Part shown: piece after piece, positions 11,563 through 44,496 of the stretch
Layout of the letters: each line of letters starts with the position of its first letter
How positions within the stretch are numbered: the first letter of the stretch is position 1
Source: Hyphomicrobiales bacterium
Lineage (GTDB): Bacteria > Pseudomonadota > Alphaproteobacteria > Rhizobiales > Rhizobiaceae
Assembly: GCA_900470155.1 (NCBI GenBank)
Contig: UBZT01000025.1
Location: 62,001 to 126,000 of the forward strand
DNA: 64,000 bases
Direction: 5' to 3'
Made by a program: the position numbers and the translations under genes
The notes under the pieces: generated by a model
What the model was told of the DNA's origin: nothing
The model's input: the letters and a program-made list of their open reading frames with translations, nothing else
Database searches by the model: none

Positions 11563-12579
11563 TCAGATCGTGCAAATTTCCATGCCCGGCCGTTGTGCCG
11601 GGCATTTTCGTTTGTCCCGACAACGAACATGCTTCAGAGCAGAAAAAAGAGCCCAGAGCGAGACGCTGATCACGCCGATCGCCGTCGATTGGGTGATGAT
11701 CGAGGCTGCCAGTCCCTGGCCCACGCCGAAGCGGCTGGCGATCAGCCAGGCATTGATCCCGGTCGGAACGGATGATGTGAGCACGAGCGCGGCGGTCCAT
11801 TGTGGACTGAGGCCGAGCAGCGTCGATGCCAGCCAGACGGTTGCAGGCATGACGATCAGCTTGATCACGGTGATGACGCTTGCGATCCGCACATTGCCCG
11901 CCATGCCATATTTGGTCAGCGTCATGCCGAGCGAGATCAAAGCCGCTGGTGCTGCCATCCCGGCCACCTGACCGACGATGCCGTCGAGCATTACGGGCAT
12001 CTTGATGCCGACGACCTGCAGCACCAGCCCGGCCATCAGGCCGATGATCAGCGGGTTGCGGATGAGATTGGCGCCAACCTGGCGCGACACGGCCAGAACG
12101 CCTTCCGAAGGCTTGCCCGTGGTTTTCTGCTCCGCACGTTCCATTGCCACCGTGCCGGCGATCATCATCAGCGGCAGATGCACGGCCAGCAGGATCGACA
12201 TGGCGACAATTCCATCGGGACCAACGGTGCGATCGACCAGCGGAAGACCGATGAACACGTTGTTGGCGAAGGCGCCGGAAAGGCCGGCCAGAACGCCGAT
12301 GCGCTGATCGCGACCGAAAAACCGCGTTGCAATAATATGACCCAGCGTCCAGGCGACGGCCACCCCGGCAAAATAGGCAATCCACAACCGGAATGGCGAG
12401 GCGCCATGGAAATCGGCATTGGCGATGGTGCGGAACATCAGCATCGGCACCGCCACTCTGAACACGAAGTCGCCCAGCCCGTCTCCGATGTCCGCCTTGA
12501 GGATTTTCAGCCTTACCAGCGACCAGCCGAACAGGATGAGAATGAAGATAGGCAGGACGTCTTGGGCAACGGATGACAT
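11563..12579 (-). CDS. AEC (auxin efflux carrier) family transporter
   Basis: Secondary transporter of the AEC/BART group, 338 residues with about ten hydrophobic helices. Proteins of this family export or exchange small organic anions or auxin-like compounds; the substrate here is unknown. The helix pair around residues 60-120 and the internal repeat after 170 are typical. The last 25 or so residues (RCRDKRKCPAQ onward) overlap the cycM terminator and look like an extension beyond the usual family C-terminus. It ends 4 nt from the cycM stop on the opposite strand. Confidence 0.87.
   Translation of the reverse strand: MSSVAQDVLPIFILILFGWSLVRLKILKADIGDGLGDFVFRVAVPMLMFRTIANADFHGASPFRLWIAYFAGVAVAWTLGHIIATRFFGRDQRIGVLAGLSGAFANNVFIGLPLVDRTVGPDGIVAMSILLAVHLPLMMIAGTVAMERAEQKTTGKPSEGVLAVSRQVGANLIRNPLIIGLMAGLVLQVVGIKMPVMLDGIVGQVAGMAAPAALISLGMTLTKYGMAGNVRIASVITVIKLIVMPATVWLASTLLGLSPQWTAALVLTSSVPTGINAWLIASRFGVGQGLAASIITQSTAIGVISVSLWALFSALKHVRCRDKRKCPAQRPGMEICTI
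11582..11609 (+). terminator. Intrinsic terminator after cycM
   Basis: A perfect 9-bp stem, ATGCCCGGC at 11582-11590 and GCCGGGCAT at 11597-11605, encloses a 6-nt loop and is followed by TTTCG. It lies inside the 3' coding end of the convergent AEC gene, so one stretch serves both as coding sequence and as terminator. Confidence 0.85.
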
Positions 12580-12668
12580 GAAATTGGCGACTCACAGAAA
12601 AAGACAGACTTTTTCTTAGACCTTGAATCCACCGCCGACCAGTCATTGAAGGGGTGCTTCCTGACGAC

Positions 12669-12790
12669 AAAAAGCAGGCAATGCCTGCTTTTACGCCCGG
12701 TCGAGCCGGGACCTGTATCCGCGCCGCCAGTACATCCGTGGTCGGCTTGGCCAGGTTGTGGAACCTGTCATGGTTCTTCGGATCGGCGCT
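12669..12790 (-). ncRNA. Candidate small RNA, copy 1 of a shared 18-nt core
   Basis: On the minus strand, the core GACCACGGATGTACTGGC (12726-12743) is followed by a CCCGG/CCGGG hairpin and then a terminator. The terminator has a 10-bp stem, 12683-12692 against 12670-12679, a 3-nt loop and trailing T residues. The same core with its own terminator occurs at 25923-25985. The 5' end is unknown; the coordinates are a minimum guess. Because the AEC gene lies about 90 nt downstream on the same strand, this could instead be a terminated leader of that gene. Confidence 0.4.
12670..12692. terminator. Bidirectional intrinsic terminator
   Basis: AAAAGCAGGC at 12670-12679 pairs with GCCTGCTTTT at 12683-12692 across a 3-nt loop. 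T residues follow on both strands. On the minus strand it would end the candidate small RNA of this gap. Confidence 0.75.
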
Positions 12791-12932
12791 GGGGAGCTAT
12801 GCCGTCCGCACACGCATCCACTAGCCCGCCAAGGTAACAGCCGCATGACAACGAAGGTTTTCTGCGCCCCCTTTCAAACCCGGCAAAAAAGGCTATGACC
12901 GTCTTGCCTATTTAACGGAGCCCAAGACCATT

Positions 12933-13925
12933 ATGAGCCGATTCGACGTCCTCACTGTCGGTAACGCAATCGTCGACATCATTTCCCGCTGCGATGATCG
13001 CTTTCTCATCGACAACGAGATCACCAAGGGTGCGATGAACCTGATTGATGCGGACCGTGCCGAGCGGCTTTACAGTCTGATGGGTCCTGCCGTCGAAGCG
13101 TCCGGCGGCAGCGCCGGCAATACCGCAGCCGGTATCGCCAATTTTGGTGGCAAGGCGGCCTATTTTGGCAAGGTAGCGGAAGATCAGCTCGGCGAGATCT
13201 TCACCCATGACATCCGCGCCCAGGGTGTGCATTTCGAGACAAAGCCGCGCGGTACCCAGCCTCCGACCGCGCGCAGCATGATCTTCGTCACCGAAGACGG
13301 CGAGCGCTCGATGAACACCTATCTCGGTGCCTGTGTTGAGCTTGGCCCGGAAGACGTCGAGCCAGAGGTTGTTGCCCAGTCCAAGGTCACCTATTTCGAA
13401 GGTTATCTCTGGGATCCGCCGCGCGCCAAGCAGGCGATCCTCGAATGTGCCCGCATTGCCCATGAGAATGGGCGCGAAATGTCGATGACATTGTCCGATA
13501 GCTTCTGCGTCGGCCGTTACCGCGAGGAATTCCTCGATCTGATGCGTTCCGGCACGGTCGATATCGTTTTTGCCAATGAGCAGGAAGCGCTGTCGCTCTA
13601 CGAAACGGATGATTTCGCCGTTGCACTCGACAGGATTGCCGCCGACTGCAAGCTTGCGGCTGTCACCATGGGCGAAAATGGCGCCGTCGTGGTCAAGGGC
13701 GACCAGCGTATCCGCGTTCCGGCCACGCTCGTAACCAATCTTCTGGATACCACCGGTGCCGGCGATCTTTTTGCCTCAGGTTTCCTGTTCGGCTACACCA
13801 ATGACCGGTCGCTTGAGGATTGCGCCCATCTGGGCTGTTATGCGGCTGGCGTTGTCATCCAGCAGATCGGCCCGCGTCCGATGAGTTCGCTGGACAAGGG
13901 CGCGCGCGCCGCAGGCCTGCTTTAA
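12933..13925 (+). CDS. Adenosine kinase-like sugar kinase (PfkB family)
   Basis: PfkB/ribokinase-fold kinase, 330 residues, annotated as adenosine kinase in related rhizobia. The substrate-side GG motif region (SGGSAGNTAAG, 57-67) and the catalytic DTTGAGD motif (272-278, with D278 as base) are intact. AACGGAG lies upstream of the ATG. It faces the SH3-domain gene convergently with an 8-nt gap. Adenosine as substrate is inferred from family placement, not shown. Confidence 0.88.
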   Translation: MSRFDVLTVGNAIVDIISRCDDRFLIDNEITKGAMNLIDADRAERLYSLMGPAVEASGGSAGNTAAGIANFGGKAAYFGKVAEDQLGEIFTHDIRAQGVHFETKPRGTQPPTARSMIFVTEDGERSMNTYLGACVELGPEDVEPEVVAQSKVTYFEGYLWDPPRAKQAILECARIAHENGREMSMTLSDSFCVGRYREEFLDLMRSGTVDIVFANEQEALSLYETDDFAVALDRIAADCKLAAVTMGENGAVVVKGDQRIRVPATLVTNLLDTTGAGDLFASGFLFGYTNDRSLEDCAHLGCYAAGVVIQQIGPRPMSSLDKGARAAGLL

Positions 13926-22787: not shown

Positions 22788-25067
22788 TTACTGGCCCAGA
22801 ATGAGGTCCAGCAGCGTGGTGCGCCGCGGCGCTCCGCCCTGAGGCGGTGTGGGCCCCACATCGCCTGGCGGGACCGGCGGACCGGGCGCATCGTTCATCG
22901 GAGGCAAACTGCCTTGCGGCGGCGACTGTGCCTCCGGTTGCGCAGGATACCGTTCCTCGCCGCCGCCCGTGAACACGTCTGAAATGATCGTACCGATCGT
23001 CATGTCGTCCTGTTGCGGCGCAGGCTCGTAATAGTCGCCGCCCGGCAGAGGCGCCGGAGACAGCCCCTGATGGGCGGCAGTCATGAAGTCATGCCAGGCG
23101 ACAGCCGGAAGACCGCCGCCGGTGACTTTTTTCATCGACTGGCCATCGTCATTGCCGAACCAGACGCCGGTGGTCAGGTTGCTGGTATAGCCGACAAACA
23201 GCGCATCGCGGAAAGACTGCGTCGTGCCGCTCTTGCCGGCCGCCTCCCAGCCCTTGAGGCGCGCCTTGCGGCCCGTTCCATTGTTGATCACGCCCATCAT
23301 CATCTTGTTCATCGACGATACGACGCCGTCACTGAGGACGCGCGGCGGCTCGAGATAGTTGTTCTCGTAGATCACCGTGCCGTCGGTCTTCAGGATCCGC
23401 CGGATCACATGCGGCGTCGCCTTGTAGCCGCCGTTCATGAACGGTGCATAGGCAGCGGTGAGTTCGAGCAGCGACACTTCCGACGTGCCGAGCGCGATCG
23501 AGGCGTTGTTCTGCAGATCCGAATCGATGCCCATCCGGTGCGCAAGCTTGATCACCTGGTCGGGGCCGACCTCCATCACCAGCTGTGCGGCAATGGTGTT
23601 GAGCGAATCCTCCATCGCCTGTGTCAGCGTCACGGGACCGCGAAATTTCTGATCGTAGTTTTCCGGCGTCCAGGCGCCGATCCGGATCGGTGCGTCATTG
23701 CGGATCGAATCCGGCCGCAAGCCGATTTCCATCGCGGCGGCGTAGACAAAGGGCTTGAACGCCGAACCCGGCTGGCGCTTGGCCTTGACCGCGCGGTTGA
23801 ACTGGCTTTCGGCATAGTCGCGCCCGCCGACAAGCGCCCGGATCGCGCCGGTGCCGTCGATCGAGACCAGCGCTGCCTGGGAGGCATTCAGTTTCCCGCC
23901 TTCGGCCGCCAGCGATTCGGTCAGGGCCGCTTCCGCCTTCTTCTCCAGAGTCAGGTCGATCGTGGTCTCGACCACCAGATCTTCGGTCACGGTGCCGATC
24001 AGCCCCGTCACCTCGTCCTTGACCATGTCGGCGACATACTGGCCCGCGCCGCTCCAGTATCGCTTCGCCTGCGTCGGAGACTGCGACATTGCTGTCTTGA
24101 TTTCGTCCTCGGTGACATAGCCCTCTTCGCGCATCGCACCGAGCACGACCTGCGCGCGCGCTTCCGCCGCCTCCGGGTCGCGCGCAGGCGACAGTCGCGA
24201 TGGCGCCTTCAAAAGGCCGGCCAGAAGCGCTGCTTCCCCCAGGTTGACGTCGCGGGCCGACTTGTTGAAATAGCGCCTCGCCGCCGCCTCGACCCCGTAG
24301 GCGTTCGAACCGAAATAGACCCGGTTCAGATACATGGCGAGGATCTGGTCCTTGGTGAATTTCTGCTCCAGCCAGAAGGACAGGAGCACTTCCTGAACCT
24401 TGCGTTCGATCGTGCGTTCCGGCGACAGGAACAGGTTCTTGGCCAGCTGCTGGGTCAGCGTCGAGCCACCCTGCAGACTGCCGCTTCCGGTCAGGTTGTT
24501 GACCACGGCGCGCGCCAGGCCGAGCGGATCCACGCCGAAATGCGAATAGAAACGCCGATCCTCGATCGCCATCACCGCCTGCGGAATATAAGGCGACATT
24601 TCCTCAAGCGGCAGCGCCTCGCCGCCGGTTGCGCCGCGATTGGCGATGACCGTTCCCTCGACCGAAACGATCTTCATGTTTGGTGGGCGTTCGGGGATCG
24701 ACCAGCTGCTCGCACTGGGCATCTGCATCCCGTAATAGAAGATGAGCCCGCCGACGGCGATCCCGCCCCAGATCGACAGAACGAAGCACCAGTAGATCAG
24801 CTTGCCAATGCCAAAGCCGCTTCTGGGCGCAGGCTTCGCCTTGCGGCCACGCGCCGACGGTTTCGCCTTCGTCTTCGTCTGGGATTTGGCGCCCTTGGTT
24901 CCCGTCTTCGCCTGACCGCTTCGCCCGCCGAGCCGATCGTTGGCGTCAAGGCGAAAATCCTCCTCCTCTCGATCTTCCTCGAAAGTCGGTTCGACACGGT
25001 CGCGGGATTTGCCTCTGGTCACCATCGAGGACGGTCTGCTCCGGATAGGTCTCGGACGCCGCGGCAT
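22788..25067 (-). CDS. Penicillin-binding protein 1A-type bifunctional glycosyltransferase/transpeptidase
   Basis: Class A PBP that polymerises and crosslinks peptidoglycan, 759 residues. The order is a charged cytoplasmic tail with Lys/Arg/Ala-rich repeats (about 1-85), a membrane anchor (about 89-112), a GT51 domain (catalytic Glu in IEDRRFYSHFG near 169, and GGSTLTQQLAKN at 200-211), and a transpeptidase domain. In the latter the nucleophile is S435 in PGSAFK and the KSGTT motif lies near 585. The C-terminal tail is Pro/Gly/Gln-rich. The long basic N-terminus may start instead at an internal Met (residue 15). Confidence 0.95.
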   Translation of the reverse strand: MPRRPRPIRSRPSSMVTRGKSRDRVEPTFEEDREEEDFRLDANDRLGGRSGQAKTGTKGAKSQTKTKAKPSARGRKAKPAPRSGFGIGKLIYWCFVLSIWGGIAVGGLIFYYGMQMPSASSWSIPERPPNMKIVSVEGTVIANRGATGGEALPLEEMSPYIPQAVMAIEDRRFYSHFGVDPLGLARAVVNNLTGSGSLQGGSTLTQQLAKNLFLSPERTIERKVQEVLLSFWLEQKFTKDQILAMYLNRVYFGSNAYGVEAAARRYFNKSARDVNLGEAALLAGLLKAPSRLSPARDPEAAEARAQVVLGAMREEGYVTEDEIKTAMSQSPTQAKRYWSGAGQYVADMVKDEVTGLIGTVTEDLVVETTIDLTLEKKAEAALTESLAAEGGKLNASQAALVSIDGTGAIRALVGGRDYAESQFNRAVKAKRQPGSAFKPFVYAAAMEIGLRPDSIRNDAPIRIGAWTPENYDQKFRGPVTLTQAMEDSLNTIAAQLVMEVGPDQVIKLAHRMGIDSDLQNNASIALGTSEVSLLELTAAYAPFMNGGYKATPHVIRRILKTDGTVIYENNYLEPPRVLSDGVVSSMNKMMMGVINNGTGRKARLKGWEAAGKSGTTQSFRDALFVGYTSNLTTGVWFGNDDGQSMKKVTGGGLPAVAWHDFMTAAHQGLSPAPLPGGDYYEPAPQQDDMTIGTIISDVFTGGGEERYPAQPEAQSPPQGSLPPMNDAPGPPVPPGDVGPTPPQGGAPRRTTLLDLILGQ

Positions 25068-25215
25068 GGGTGCCGCGCCTGCGTCAGGTTGATGTCGAGG
25101 GCAGGCTGCATTCGACGATGGTTAGCCTGCTTCCGATCTGAACACTAAATGCGGCGATTTAAGGGGTGGTTAAGAGGCCGTAAACAGGCCGTTTTCCCGA
25201 TGTCTGCCGTTTGAT

Positions 25216-25674
25216 CTATTGGCAGAGATCCGCCCATTCGGCGCCGGTCAATTCGGCCATCCGCTGCGGCGAGATCCGCACCGCGGCATTCGTCGCGCCA
25301 GCGGCCGGGACCACTTCATCGAAATCTTGCAGCGAGAGATCGCAATAGACCTTCAGCGGCCTCGGCAGGCCGAAAGGGCAGACGCCGCCGACCGGATGGC
25401 TCGTGGAAGCCACGACACCATCGGCATCGAGCATGCGCGGCTTGACCCCGAATAAATCCTTGAACTTGCGGTTGTCGAGCCGCTTCGTGCCGGCGGTCAC
25501 CACCAGCACGACGTCCTCGCCGATCCTGAGGCAGATCGTCTTTGCGATCTGGTCGGGCTCGACGCCATGGGCTTCGGCGGCCAGTGGTACGGTTGCGGAA
25601 CTGGCTTCCGTGACGATCACGGAAATCTCAGGCGCATTGGTGAGGAAGAAGCTGCGGACGGATTCAAGGCTCAT
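25216..25674 (-). CDS. YbaK/EbsC family aminoacyl-tRNA deacylase-like protein
   Basis: Members hydrolyse mischarged aminoacyl-tRNAs such as Cys-tRNA(Pro). The 152-residue protein covers the single YbaK domain, with the conserved lysine in IAKTICLR and the GGVCPFGLP loop. No tRNA synthetase domain is attached, so it is a free-standing editing factor. Which tRNA it edits cannot be told from the sequence. It is followed, 148 nt downstream, by the PBP1A gene start. Confidence 0.9.
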   Translation of the reverse strand: MSLESVRSFFLTNAPEISVIVTEASSATVPLAAEAHGVEPDQIAKTICLRIGEDVVLVVTAGTKRLDNRKFKDLFGVKPRMLDADGVVASTSHPVGGVCPFGLPRPLKVYCDLSLQDFDEVVPAAGATNAAVRISPQRMAELTGAEWADLCQ

Positions 25675-25814: not shown

Positions 25815-25899
25815 CGTCAGGATTAACCCGGCGTTAAGCATCAAGGGTCATTCTTGGCTCCAGGGTGCGAGCCTGCAGAGCGCAGGCAGACACTGGATA

Positions 25900-25990
25900 T
25901 CGCATGGCACGTTTCCGTTTTTGACCACGGATGTACTGGCAGGGATGTTGAAACGTAAAGGAAAGGCCGGTTTTCACCGGCCTTTTTGCT
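25900..25990 (+). ncRNA. Candidate small RNA, copy 2 of a shared 18-nt core
   Basis: The core GACCACGGATGTACTGGC at 25923-25940 is identical to that in the gap before the adenosine-kinase-like gene. It is enclosed by CGTTTC (25910-25915) and GAAACG (25950-25955) and followed by an intrinsic terminator at 25962-25987. The unit is convergent with the M20 peptidase gene and so cannot be its leader, which favours a free small RNA. The 5' end is unknown. Confidence 0.5.
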
Positions 25991-25996
25991 TTTTTG
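25962..25996 (+). terminator. Intrinsic terminator of candidate small RNA
   Basis: AAAGGCCGG at 25962-25970 pairs with CCGGCCTTT at 25977-25985, followed by TTGC and a second run of T. On the minus strand the same hairpin ends in TTTCCTTT and may also stop transcription from the M20 peptidase gene. Confidence 0.88.
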
Positions 25997-25998
25997 TG

Positions 25999-27387
25999 TC
26001 AGTTCTTCGACAAGGCGTCGAGAATGCGGATCCACGAGCGGATGCCCTTGTGGAATGAATTCAGGTCATATTTCTCGTTCGGAGAATGGATGCGGTCATC
26101 CACCTGTCCGAAGCCGACCAGCAGCGAATCCATGCCGAGCATCTTCTGGAAATCGCCGACGATCGGGATCGAGCCACCCATGCCGATCACGACGGCAGCC
26201 TTTGGCCACTCGTCCGACAGCGCGTTCTTCGCCTTGGTCAGCACCGGCGAATCGTAGGACAACTGGATGGCCGGAGAACCGCCGTGCTCATGAAACTCAA
26301 CCGAGCAATCGGCCGGAATGCGCGACTTCACATAGGTGCGGAAACTGTCGCGGATCTTCGCCGGATCCTGGTCGCCGACGAGGCGGAACGAGACCTTGGC
26401 GGAGGCCTTGGCCGCGATCACGGTCTTGAAGCCTTCGCCGGTATAGCCGCCGATGATGCCGTTGACCTCGGCCGTTGGCCGCGCCCATGTCAGTTCCAGC
26501 ACCGAGCGGCCCTTTTCGCCGGACGGAACGGAGAGTCCGACCTCGCCGAGGAAACTTTCGGCCGTGCGGCCGAGGCTGTCCCACGACGCCTTGATGTTCG
26601 ACGGTGTTTCCTCGACCCCATCGTAGAAGCCGGGCAGCGTCACCTTGCCGGTCTCGTCATGCAGGTCGGCAAGGATCTTTGTGAGGATATGCACCGGGTT
26701 GGCGGCTGCACCACCGAACAGGCCGGAATGCAGGTCGCGGTCGGCGGCAGTGATGGTGATTTCCTCGCCGACAAGGCCGCGCAGGGCGGCCGCAATCGCG
26801 GGTGTCTCGCGGTCCCACATGCTGGTGTCGCAGACCAGGGCGAAATCGGCCTTGAGTTCGGCTTCATTGGCAGTGAGGAAAGGCTTCAGCGACGGCGATC
26901 CGGATTCTTCCTCGCCTTCAAACAGGATGGTGATGCGCACCGGCAGGCTGCCATTCACCGCCTTGTAGGCGCGGCAGGCTTCGAGGAAGGTCAACAACTG
27001 ACCCTTGTCGTCGGACGTGCCGCGACCGGTGATCACCTTGCGGCCGTCTTTTTCCTTGATCGACGGGGCAAACGGGTCGTCTTCCCAGAGGTTCAGCGGA
27101 TCGACCGGCTGCACGTCATAGTGGCCGTAAAACAGCGCATGCGGCGCGTTATCGCTGGCCGCGGCATGATGGGCAACAACCATCGGATGGCCGGGCGTAT
27201 CGCGCACCGAGGCGGTGAAGCCGAGATCGTTCAGTTCCTTGACCAGCCATTCGGCGGCCCGCTGGCAATCTGCCTTGAAGGCCGGATCGGTCGAGATCGA
27301 GGGGATGCGCACGAGCTCGAAAAGGCGCTCGAGGCTCTGCGGCAAGGTCTCGTCGGCCTTGGCGAGAAGAGGGGAAAGATCGGTCAT
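25999..27387 (-). CDS. M20 family dipeptidase/metallopeptidase
   Basis: Zinc-dependent peptidase of the M20/M25/M40 superfamily, 462 residues from ATG 27387. Metal and catalytic motifs are visible: HYDVQP (metal His, catalytic Asp), GRGTSDDKG (bridging Asp) and the FEGEEESGSP segment (catalytic Glu plus metal Glu), with the dimerisation domain inserted about 200-340. Close relatives are annotated as dipeptidases; the real substrate is unknown. The longer open frame upstream lacks conservation and runs towards the MarR gene end. Confidence 0.92.
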   Translation of the reverse strand: MTDLSPLLAKADETLPQSLERLFELVRIPSISTDPAFKADCQRAAEWLVKELNDLGFTASVRDTPGHPMVVAHHAAASDNAPHALFYGHYDVQPVDPLNLWEDDPFAPSIKEKDGRKVITGRGTSDDKGQLLTFLEACRAYKAVNGSLPVRITILFEGEEESGSPSLKPFLTANEAELKADFALVCDTSMWDRETPAIAAALRGLVGEEITITAADRDLHSGLFGGAAANPVHILTKILADLHDETGKVTLPGFYDGVEETPSNIKASWDSLGRTAESFLGEVGLSVPSGEKGRSVLELTWARPTAEVNGIIGGYTGEGFKTVIAAKASAKVSFRLVGDQDPAKIRDSFRTYVKSRIPADCSVEFHEHGGSPAIQLSYDSPVLTKAKNALSDEWPKAAVVIGMGGSIPIVGDFQKMLGMDSLLVGFGQVDDRIHSPNEKYDLNSFHKGIRSWIRILDALSKN

Positions 27388-27492
27388 GGCAATATCCTGC
27401 GCGATTGAAATCGGCGGGACGATAGAACAAAGCGTCGGCAGTTTCGAGCTTGCCGGGAGGTGATTTTTTCTCAAACCTCTTGCAGGCTCGCT

Positions 27493-44461: not shown

Positions 44462-44496
44462 ATGAGTAAACGCAAGGCATGACAAGCATATGACAG
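44462..44496 (-). promoter_or_regulatory. PHO box and -10 upstream of phnG
   Basis: On the minus strand CTGTCATATGCTTGTCAT (44496 to 44479) matches the PhoB consensus CTGTCATNNNNCTGTCAT at 13 of 14 fixed positions. After 10 nt it is followed by TACTCAT (44468-44462), the usual spacing to a -10. It points towards phnG, whose start is 51 nt further on. Confidence 0.82.

Follow-up and report, generated by a model that had tools for sequence, protein, structure and literature searches.

A hairpin with a GGAUGUA loop, common to the SmelB053 small RNAs and the 3'UTRs of cold-shock genes, was published in 2011 (Reinkensmeier 2011, PMC3927594, section 2.5). As described there, the element combines this loop with a variable first stem and a terminator, and it recurs in 33 related 3'UTRs, 29 of which belong to cold-shock genes. 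It was likened to the E. coli cspA 3'UTR, and a sequestration of degradation complexes was proposed; an interceptor role has already been put forward in that paper. SmrB35, an RNA of 139 nt discovered in 2007, responds to luteolin with a stimulation of about 4-fold, and a LysR-type motif lies upstream of it (PMC2780559). In 2008 a second copy was described at a distance of 3 kb (PMC2573895), and SmrB35 was not detected in an Hfq co-immunoprecipitate, which its authors read as no or weak binding (PMC2848018). We found no function for the family in the literature under the names smrB35 and SmelB053. CsrB/RsmZ-type decoy RNAs also carry hairpins with GGA in the loop, and CcnA of Caulobacter (PMC8959179) is counted among the closest known systems.

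The window, by which we mean the whole 64-kb stretch of DNA analysed here, contains two copies of such an element. They share core, hairpin and terminator with the ar35/SmrB35/SmelB053 family (Rfam RF02346), from which they differ as follows: a CtrA-type box marks copy 1, a paralogue, while copy 2 is a sub-threshold match with a Pho-like box. They share loop and terminator with the cold-shock (csp) 3'UTRs of PMC3927594, SmelC521 for example, but neither window copy is attached to a csp gene. Compared with the CsrB/RsmZ-type decoys, there is one GGA-containing loop per RNA here, and no CsrA gene was found in the 60 genomes scanned.

Two related hairpin loci and their family

The 18-nt core GACCACGGATGTACTGGC occurs exactly at 25923-25940 (+) and 12726-12743 (-) and nowhere else in the window, even when up to 3 mismatches are allowed. 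In 100 shuffles of the window, the mean number of core matches was 0.02 and none of the 100 contained two. No reading frame of at least 100 aa covers either copy, and each core is followed on its own strand by an intrinsic terminator, whose stem begins about 21 nt on in copy 1 (near 25961) and about 33 nt on in copy 2 (near 12693). The features of the two loci are as follows.

Copy 1
25216..25674, minus strand: aminoacyl-tRNA editing-domain gene, a neighbour on the upstream side of copy 1 that is conserved in the genus
25823..25837, plus strand: CtrA-box-like site TTAACCCGGCGTTAA (TTAA-N7-TTAA) at the promoter position, from 20 loci of the genus
25850..25855, plus strand: putative -10 element ATTCTT, 12 nt past the second TTAA, inferred from the orthologue alignment
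25865..25991, plus strand: ar35-family small-RNA gene (RF02346), 53.5 bits
25910..25955, plus strand: conserved hairpin (bulged A, CCA/UGG, loop CGGAUGUAC), from fold and covariation
25923..25940, plus strand: 18-nt core, exact match
25961..25987, plus strand: intrinsic terminator, from terminator scan and fold
25999..27474, minus strand: M20 peptidase gene, convergent with copy 1, a conserved neighbour

Copy 2
11563..12579, minus strand: conserved membrane transporter gene (PF03547), which shares the strand of copy 2 and lies downstream of it
12664..12811, minus strand: inferred small-RNA transcript, both ends inferred, from fold and a 17.4-bit match
12669..12693, minus strand: intrinsic terminator, from terminator scan and fold
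12711..12756, minus strand: hairpin with loop and apical stem as in copy 1, from fold
12726..12743, minus strand: 18-nt core, exact match
12818..12823, minus strand: putative -10 element TAGTGG, exactly 10 nt past the Pho-box-like repeat, with TA kept in 20/20 loci
12834..12850, minus strand: Pho-box-like direct repeat TGTCAT-N5-TGTTAC at the promoter position
12933..13925, plus strand: PfkB-family sugar kinase gene, divergent from copy 2, conserved

An earlier sequence-only reading had described two related intergenic loci, each with an exact core and a same-strand terminator 21 or 33 nt downstream. All of this is borne out, the kinship by an apical hairpin that is the same in both. That reading also took copy 1 as convergent with its neighbour and therefore no leader, as the M20 peptidase gene confirms. 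Its statement that no named family matched does not stand. Indeed, the covariance-model search it had proposed places copy 1 in Rfam ar35 (RF02346), which is SmrB35/SmelB053 in S. meliloti, at 53.5 bits (E 4e-07) with a gathering score of 45. Copy 2 reached 17.4 bits, aligned to model positions 67-86 only, which is the core; since this lies below 45 it is not classed as ar35, though the same hairpin is present. By its anatomy, copy 2 is a family member, a paralogue so far unlisted. The third stand-alone copy of the genome (L001) scored 127 bits, and the two S. meliloti pSymB copies 139 and 97 bits; L001 is thus the closest SmelB053/SmrB35 counterpart in this genome, and the window copies are paralogues.

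Both copies show the anatomy that defines the SmelB053 RFM, a GGAUGUA-loop hairpin followed by a Rho-independent terminator (12693-12669 and 25961-25987). With an M20 peptidase and an editing-domain gene as neighbours of copy 1, and PfkB and transporter genes as neighbours of copy 2, neither qualifies as a csp 3'UTR. The RNA family has thus already been named, and what appears new, on sequence evidence only, is the promoter signatures and perhaps the phage carriage. The window also contains the bacterial small SRP RNA (RF00169, 7655-7751, minus strand) and, some 2 kb away from copy 1, an ar7 small RNA (RF02342, 28017-28164, minus strand, 112.6 bits); ar7 lies within 5 kb of an ar35 copy at L138, L149 and L179 as well.

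In both copies, the CGGAUGUAC loop is closed by a CCA/UGG stem and followed outward by one bulged A, a covarying stem and the terminator. The inferred transcripts folded better than their shuffles (z -3.7 for copy 1, z -2.7 for copy 2), and the copy 2 fold of -61.9 kcal/mol was equalled in 1/200 shuffles. When right flanks were exchanged among 196 sites, the mean hairpin energy rose from -20.9 to -14.3 kcal/mol (sd 0.21, 20 permutations). Among 113 sites picked for diversity, including one in a long reading frame (L012), 111 can form the pair (-3,+2), where shuffles gave 92.4 +/- 1.8; it is U-A in 85 and C-G in 21; many loci are closely related, so counts of this kind are not independent. Each of five more pairs outward of (-3,+2) exceeded the largest of 500 shuffles of the same 113 sites, and slid pairings, used as a control, reached at most about 2 sd above their own shuffles. 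Covariation of the stem, named beforehand as supporting evidence, is seen in both the 196-site and the 113-site test.

The loop and most of the apical stem were set by the search pattern itself; the invariance of the loop is therefore partly by construction, and these counts say nothing on how conserved either part is. A less biased look came from a 2-mismatch search of the genome, which gave a compensatory variant (L005, A-U to G-C), the only non-exact copy at this threshold that lies outside a long same-strand reading frame. That the stem tolerates such a change suggests that structure, not sequence, matters. A small ORF from AUGUACUGG was rejected on by-eye inspection of the printed loci, in which the downstream codons are not conserved. 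All together, we regard it as practically certain that this is a real hairpin RNA family.

Cold-shock genes, free copies and viral contigs

The genome itself contains four exact 18-mers and two at two mismatches, and none of the reversed pattern. These six are the two window copies (L003 and L004), the third stand-alone copy (L001), two that directly follow cold-shock genes (L002, with an exact core, and L005, whose core has a compensatory double change) and L006, a presumed chance match within a same-strand frame of 301 aa. A second look less biased by the search pattern came from the csp genes, which number seven (from 8 domain matches, since one frame has two): the exact core, the compensatory core and a diverged loop occur once each, and four have no hairpin. 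In the diverged case (L217, contig C21:482926-483120), the 3'UTR hairpin is kept in place with its loop changed to CGGATTTTC.

Beyond this genome, a 15-mer of the core was present in 36/36 genomes of the genus (own included), with 2 to 8 matches each, a few of them in coding sequence, and in 4/24 genomes of other families, that is in 40/60 overall; the reversed control gave 0 or 1 per genome. The loci retrieved from this 60-genome scan, 30 initially and 60 more taken by place, are a subset of the matches. In the four out-of-family genomes, one site has a csp-like gene and a strong terminator (L009), one a csp-like gene and a weak terminator (L008), and two have neither (L007, L010). The exact 18-mer was found in 27/150 genomes of an order-wide sample and in 5/115 of a class-wide sample (own included in both), with 0 control matches in either. 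Outside the order, 4/4 sites lie 22-134 nt after a csp-like frame, with a terminator detected in 2/4, which suggests that the csp 3'UTR is the older context. Among named genomes, a scan gave at least 118 stretches and, among the matches listed, all but L133, L144, L211 and L214 are Hyphomicrobiales by title.

A csp-like gene precedes 44/89 distinct sites in the first site set. The larger set comprises 201 distinct sites with at least 250 nt of upstream sequence, in which csp genes were called by sequence motifs only: 97 have a csp gene and a terminator, 12 a csp gene without one, 82 another context with a terminator and 10 another context without. The terminator scan of these sites placed 178 terminators downstream on the sense strand and 7 on the antisense side, with none on the sense side at 23. 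A few coding-type matches in long reading frames exist (L006, L007, L010, L012 and L019), all judged chance; the last four are kept in the pooled counts of 89 and 201 sites. The core is thus not mainly coding and terminator-less, the pattern that the sequence-only reading had said would speak against it. Of the small-RNA family claimed there, the family is real; about half of the copies, however, are 3'UTRs of cold-shock mRNAs and not separate small-RNA genes, and the trans action it had argued for stays conjectural. Tandem core hairpins follow the csp gene at L158 (86 nt apart) and L212 (67 nt apart).

The 18-mer also occurs in at least 120 IMG/VR viral contigs (L225-L344). The 120 sites listed comprise 48 with a csp gene and a terminator, 59 in another context with a terminator, 12 in another context without and 1 with a csp gene without; some of these contigs may carry host flanks, and most were judged by one neighbour only. 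Looser 16-mer matches (L345 onward), mostly without terminators or csp genes, were excluded from the counts. The largest nearby frame belongs to a DNA polymerase/primase family at 15/59 stand-alone viral sites, and is a phage DNA-repair exonuclease at 10 of the 46 csp viral sites scanned (of 48). On contig L303, terminase, portal and phage-type helicase genes adjoin the hairpin, and the contig also has a head gene that resembles its counterpart in Rhizobium phage 16-3. Searches of named cultured phages with the module gave no match or only partial matches in the csp-like stretch, and short-query searches found no exact hairpin among the matches listed (30/30; best 40 of 101). Rhizobium phage 16-3 has a single match within 3 mismatches, inside gene p009. 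In a genome of the same genus (G006, contig C17), the hairpin L081 lies between two genes of a podovirus-like region, with no strong terminator; this region is 70.7% identical to Rhizobium phage RHph_I20 around the head-to-tail joining gene. L332 resembles L081, its hairpin following a head-tail adaptor gene.

Promoter signatures of the free copies

Throughout the genus, copy 1 keeps its place between the editing-domain gene and the M20 peptidase gene, an arrangement also found in part in Agrobacterium and Rhizobium. The TTAACCCGGCGTTAA box starts 102 nt upstream of the core's CCACGG, and transcription would start near 25861 (+). Among 20 copy-1 loci of the genus, TTAA-N7-TTAA was exact in 15 and had one mismatch in 5. 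Stand-alone sites with a terminator carried an exact box within 200 nt upstream in 23/82 cases, against 0/97 for csp sites with a terminator. Other TTAA spacings gave 2 (N4) or 0 (N5, N6, N8, N9 and N10), and dinucleotide-shuffled upstream regions contained the box in 7/4600. The motif appears together with CtrA in 15 published papers. On box and position, copy 1 is probably wired to CtrA, and hence to the cell cycle.

The exact motif occurs only twice in the window, the second time at 25159-25173; the gene that begins some 90 nt downstream of this site encodes a penicillin-binding protein (22788-25067, minus strand) and is a possible CtrA target. The box is also present at Mesorhizobium, Shinella, Agrobacterium and Bartonella loci; in other genera it stands at other distances from the core, and L390 and L391 show TTAAGGGTTCGTTAA by eye. 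It was absent from both S. meliloti pSymB copies, SmelB050 and SmelB053, and an order-wide search for box and core at one spacing found this genome only (1/297, 12 of the others being of the same family); CtrA control is thus no family trait. As a family-wide feature, the box was rejected on these two copies (0/2), the csp sites and the viral sites listed (0/120 with an exact box). The literature under smrB35 and SmelB053 contains no passage linking these RNAs to CtrA, and sRNAs do not come up in the main text of the study of CtrA binding in S. meliloti.

Upstream of copy 2 stands TGTCAT-GCGGC-TGTTAC, one mismatch from the motif used, TGTCAT-N5-TGTCAC. We compared 20 copy-2 loci (17 of the genus, 3 named): the repeat lies 89-123 nt upstream of the core in 20/20 within 3 mismatches and in 13/20 within 2, and TA follows exactly 10 nt after it in 20/20, as read by eye. 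The corresponding controls were 2/20 and 0/20 for copy-1 loci, and 90/2000 and 9/2000 for random stretches of the window. Only two window sites come within 1 mismatch, that of copy 2 and one at 44495-44479 (-). The latter (44479-44495) is just upstream of the phosphonate genes phnH, phnI and phnJ, which are classic Pho targets.

The published Pho box consists of two 7-nt CTGTCAT direct repeats with a 4-nt A/T-rich spacer (PMC3131613); unlike that spacer, the GCGGC of copy 2 is GC-rich, which counts against PhoB. On the motif and its placement, we lean slightly towards copy 2 being wired to PhoB, that is to phosphate starvation. One copy-2-type locus, L123 of Rhizobium subbaraonis, has a CtrA-type box and a Pho-like repeat together, which blurs this division of labour. 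A further block near GGTCATAGCC(G/T)TTTTT (12885-12900, minus strand) is conserved upstream of copy 2 in orthologues and is perhaps the divergent PfkB promoter. L001 and its relatives share a promoter block with CTATA, unlike copies 1 and 2; three or more types of promoter thus seem to serve the free copies.

Proposed docking and decoys, and rival explanations

As the best explanation of the whole, we tentatively propose, at a little short of even likelihood, that each locus is a small-RNA gene built around the ar35/SmelB053 hairpin, with the hairpin as a docking site and the free copies as decoys. A docking site for a host RNA-binding factor would be expected from the pairing, which is kept while the sequence of the lower stem drifts; the kept loop and bulge on this drifting stem, the csp link and the presence in phages favour a hairpin that docks a protein. 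On csp mRNAs, the hairpin would set 3'-end stability or autoregulation, and the free copies would titrate the factor that acts on csp mRNA ends. Titration as the mechanism is possible, if doubtful. Each free copy would have its own promoter, copy 1 probably fired by CtrA and copy 2 probably by PhoB, and csp control would thereby take in cell-cycle and phosphate states. That both versions are found in phages fits a decoy worth borrowing. S. meliloti CspA5 has been described as a CtrA activator (PMC7143759); a regulatory loop could then be closed by a decoy that CtrA drives and that acts on csp mRNAs, which is speculation. Against the proposal, four of the seven csp genes of this genome have no hairpin and one more has a changed loop.

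ACGGAUGU resembles the CsrA consensus. A CsrA gene (PF02599) was found in 0/60 genomes, own included, and in 3/14 control genomes, an absence in agreement with a passage of PMC7143759, and RsmZ (Rfam PrrB_RsmZ) matched over copy 1 at 23.8 bits, under its cut-off of 44. A CsrA sponge was rejected on these grounds and is retained as an analogy only.

The free copies may instead be classical trans-acting small RNAs in which the loop is an antisense seed, all copies, including processed fragments of csp 3'UTRs, silencing one shared set of mRNAs by base pairing. A seed common to many RNAs typically shows up as an exposed, conserved loop, small RNAs are often derived from 3'UTRs, and each window copy has the look of an independent gene with its own terminator. 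We nevertheless consider this somewhat unlikely: the stem tolerates a change from A-U to G-C, which suggests structure over sequence, and no near-complete mRNA complement of the 18-mer was seen in the genome within 2 mismatches, since the six sites found are five family members by anatomy and L006 in its same-strand frame. It is more improbable that the element is a 3'-end stabiliser only, hairpin and terminator shielding abundant transcripts such as csp mRNAs and phage RNAs from decay at the 3' end while any specific function of the free copies resides in their variable 5' part. The frequent sense-strand terminators (178/201 sites), the published likeness to the E. coli cspA 3'UTR (PMC3927594) and a 5' part that differs between copies agree with it; a stabiliser would, however, have no obvious need for a kept 9-nt loop and bulge, and no terminator was detected at 23/201 sites.

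For copy 2, the idea that it is no small RNA but acts on the transporter gene downstream, as its leader or attenuator, is kept as a rival because copy 2 lies upstream of this same-strand gene in orthologous loci, where the gene starts 145-211 nt after the core (loci matching from the first residue). A complete terminator stands between the core and the transporter, however, and contexts unrelated to this gene use the same core hairpin, which makes this very unlikely. A mobile element or dispersed repeat acting at the DNA level only, with no role as RNA, would account for several copies per genome and for those in phage contigs, but it would explain neither the RNA covariation, nor the fixed orientation to terminators, nor the conserved gene neighbours; rejected on covariation and orientation, it is extremely unlikely.

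Returning to the docking hairpin, its broadest form is that a portable hairpin serves as a shared docking element, with csp mRNA ends and decoys from CtrA, PhoB and other promoters competing for one RNA-binding factor in bacteria lacking CsrA, and that phages took up csp-linked and free forms to tap this circuit; in full, this may be so, though we think it rather unlikely. The promoter signatures give direct and cheap handles, CtrA for copy 1 and PhoB for copy 2. Phage carriage suggests that the hairpin does something worth having. Moreover, genomes that have several CsrA-like hairpins but no CsrA hint at another RNA-binding protein in the Hyphomicrobiales.
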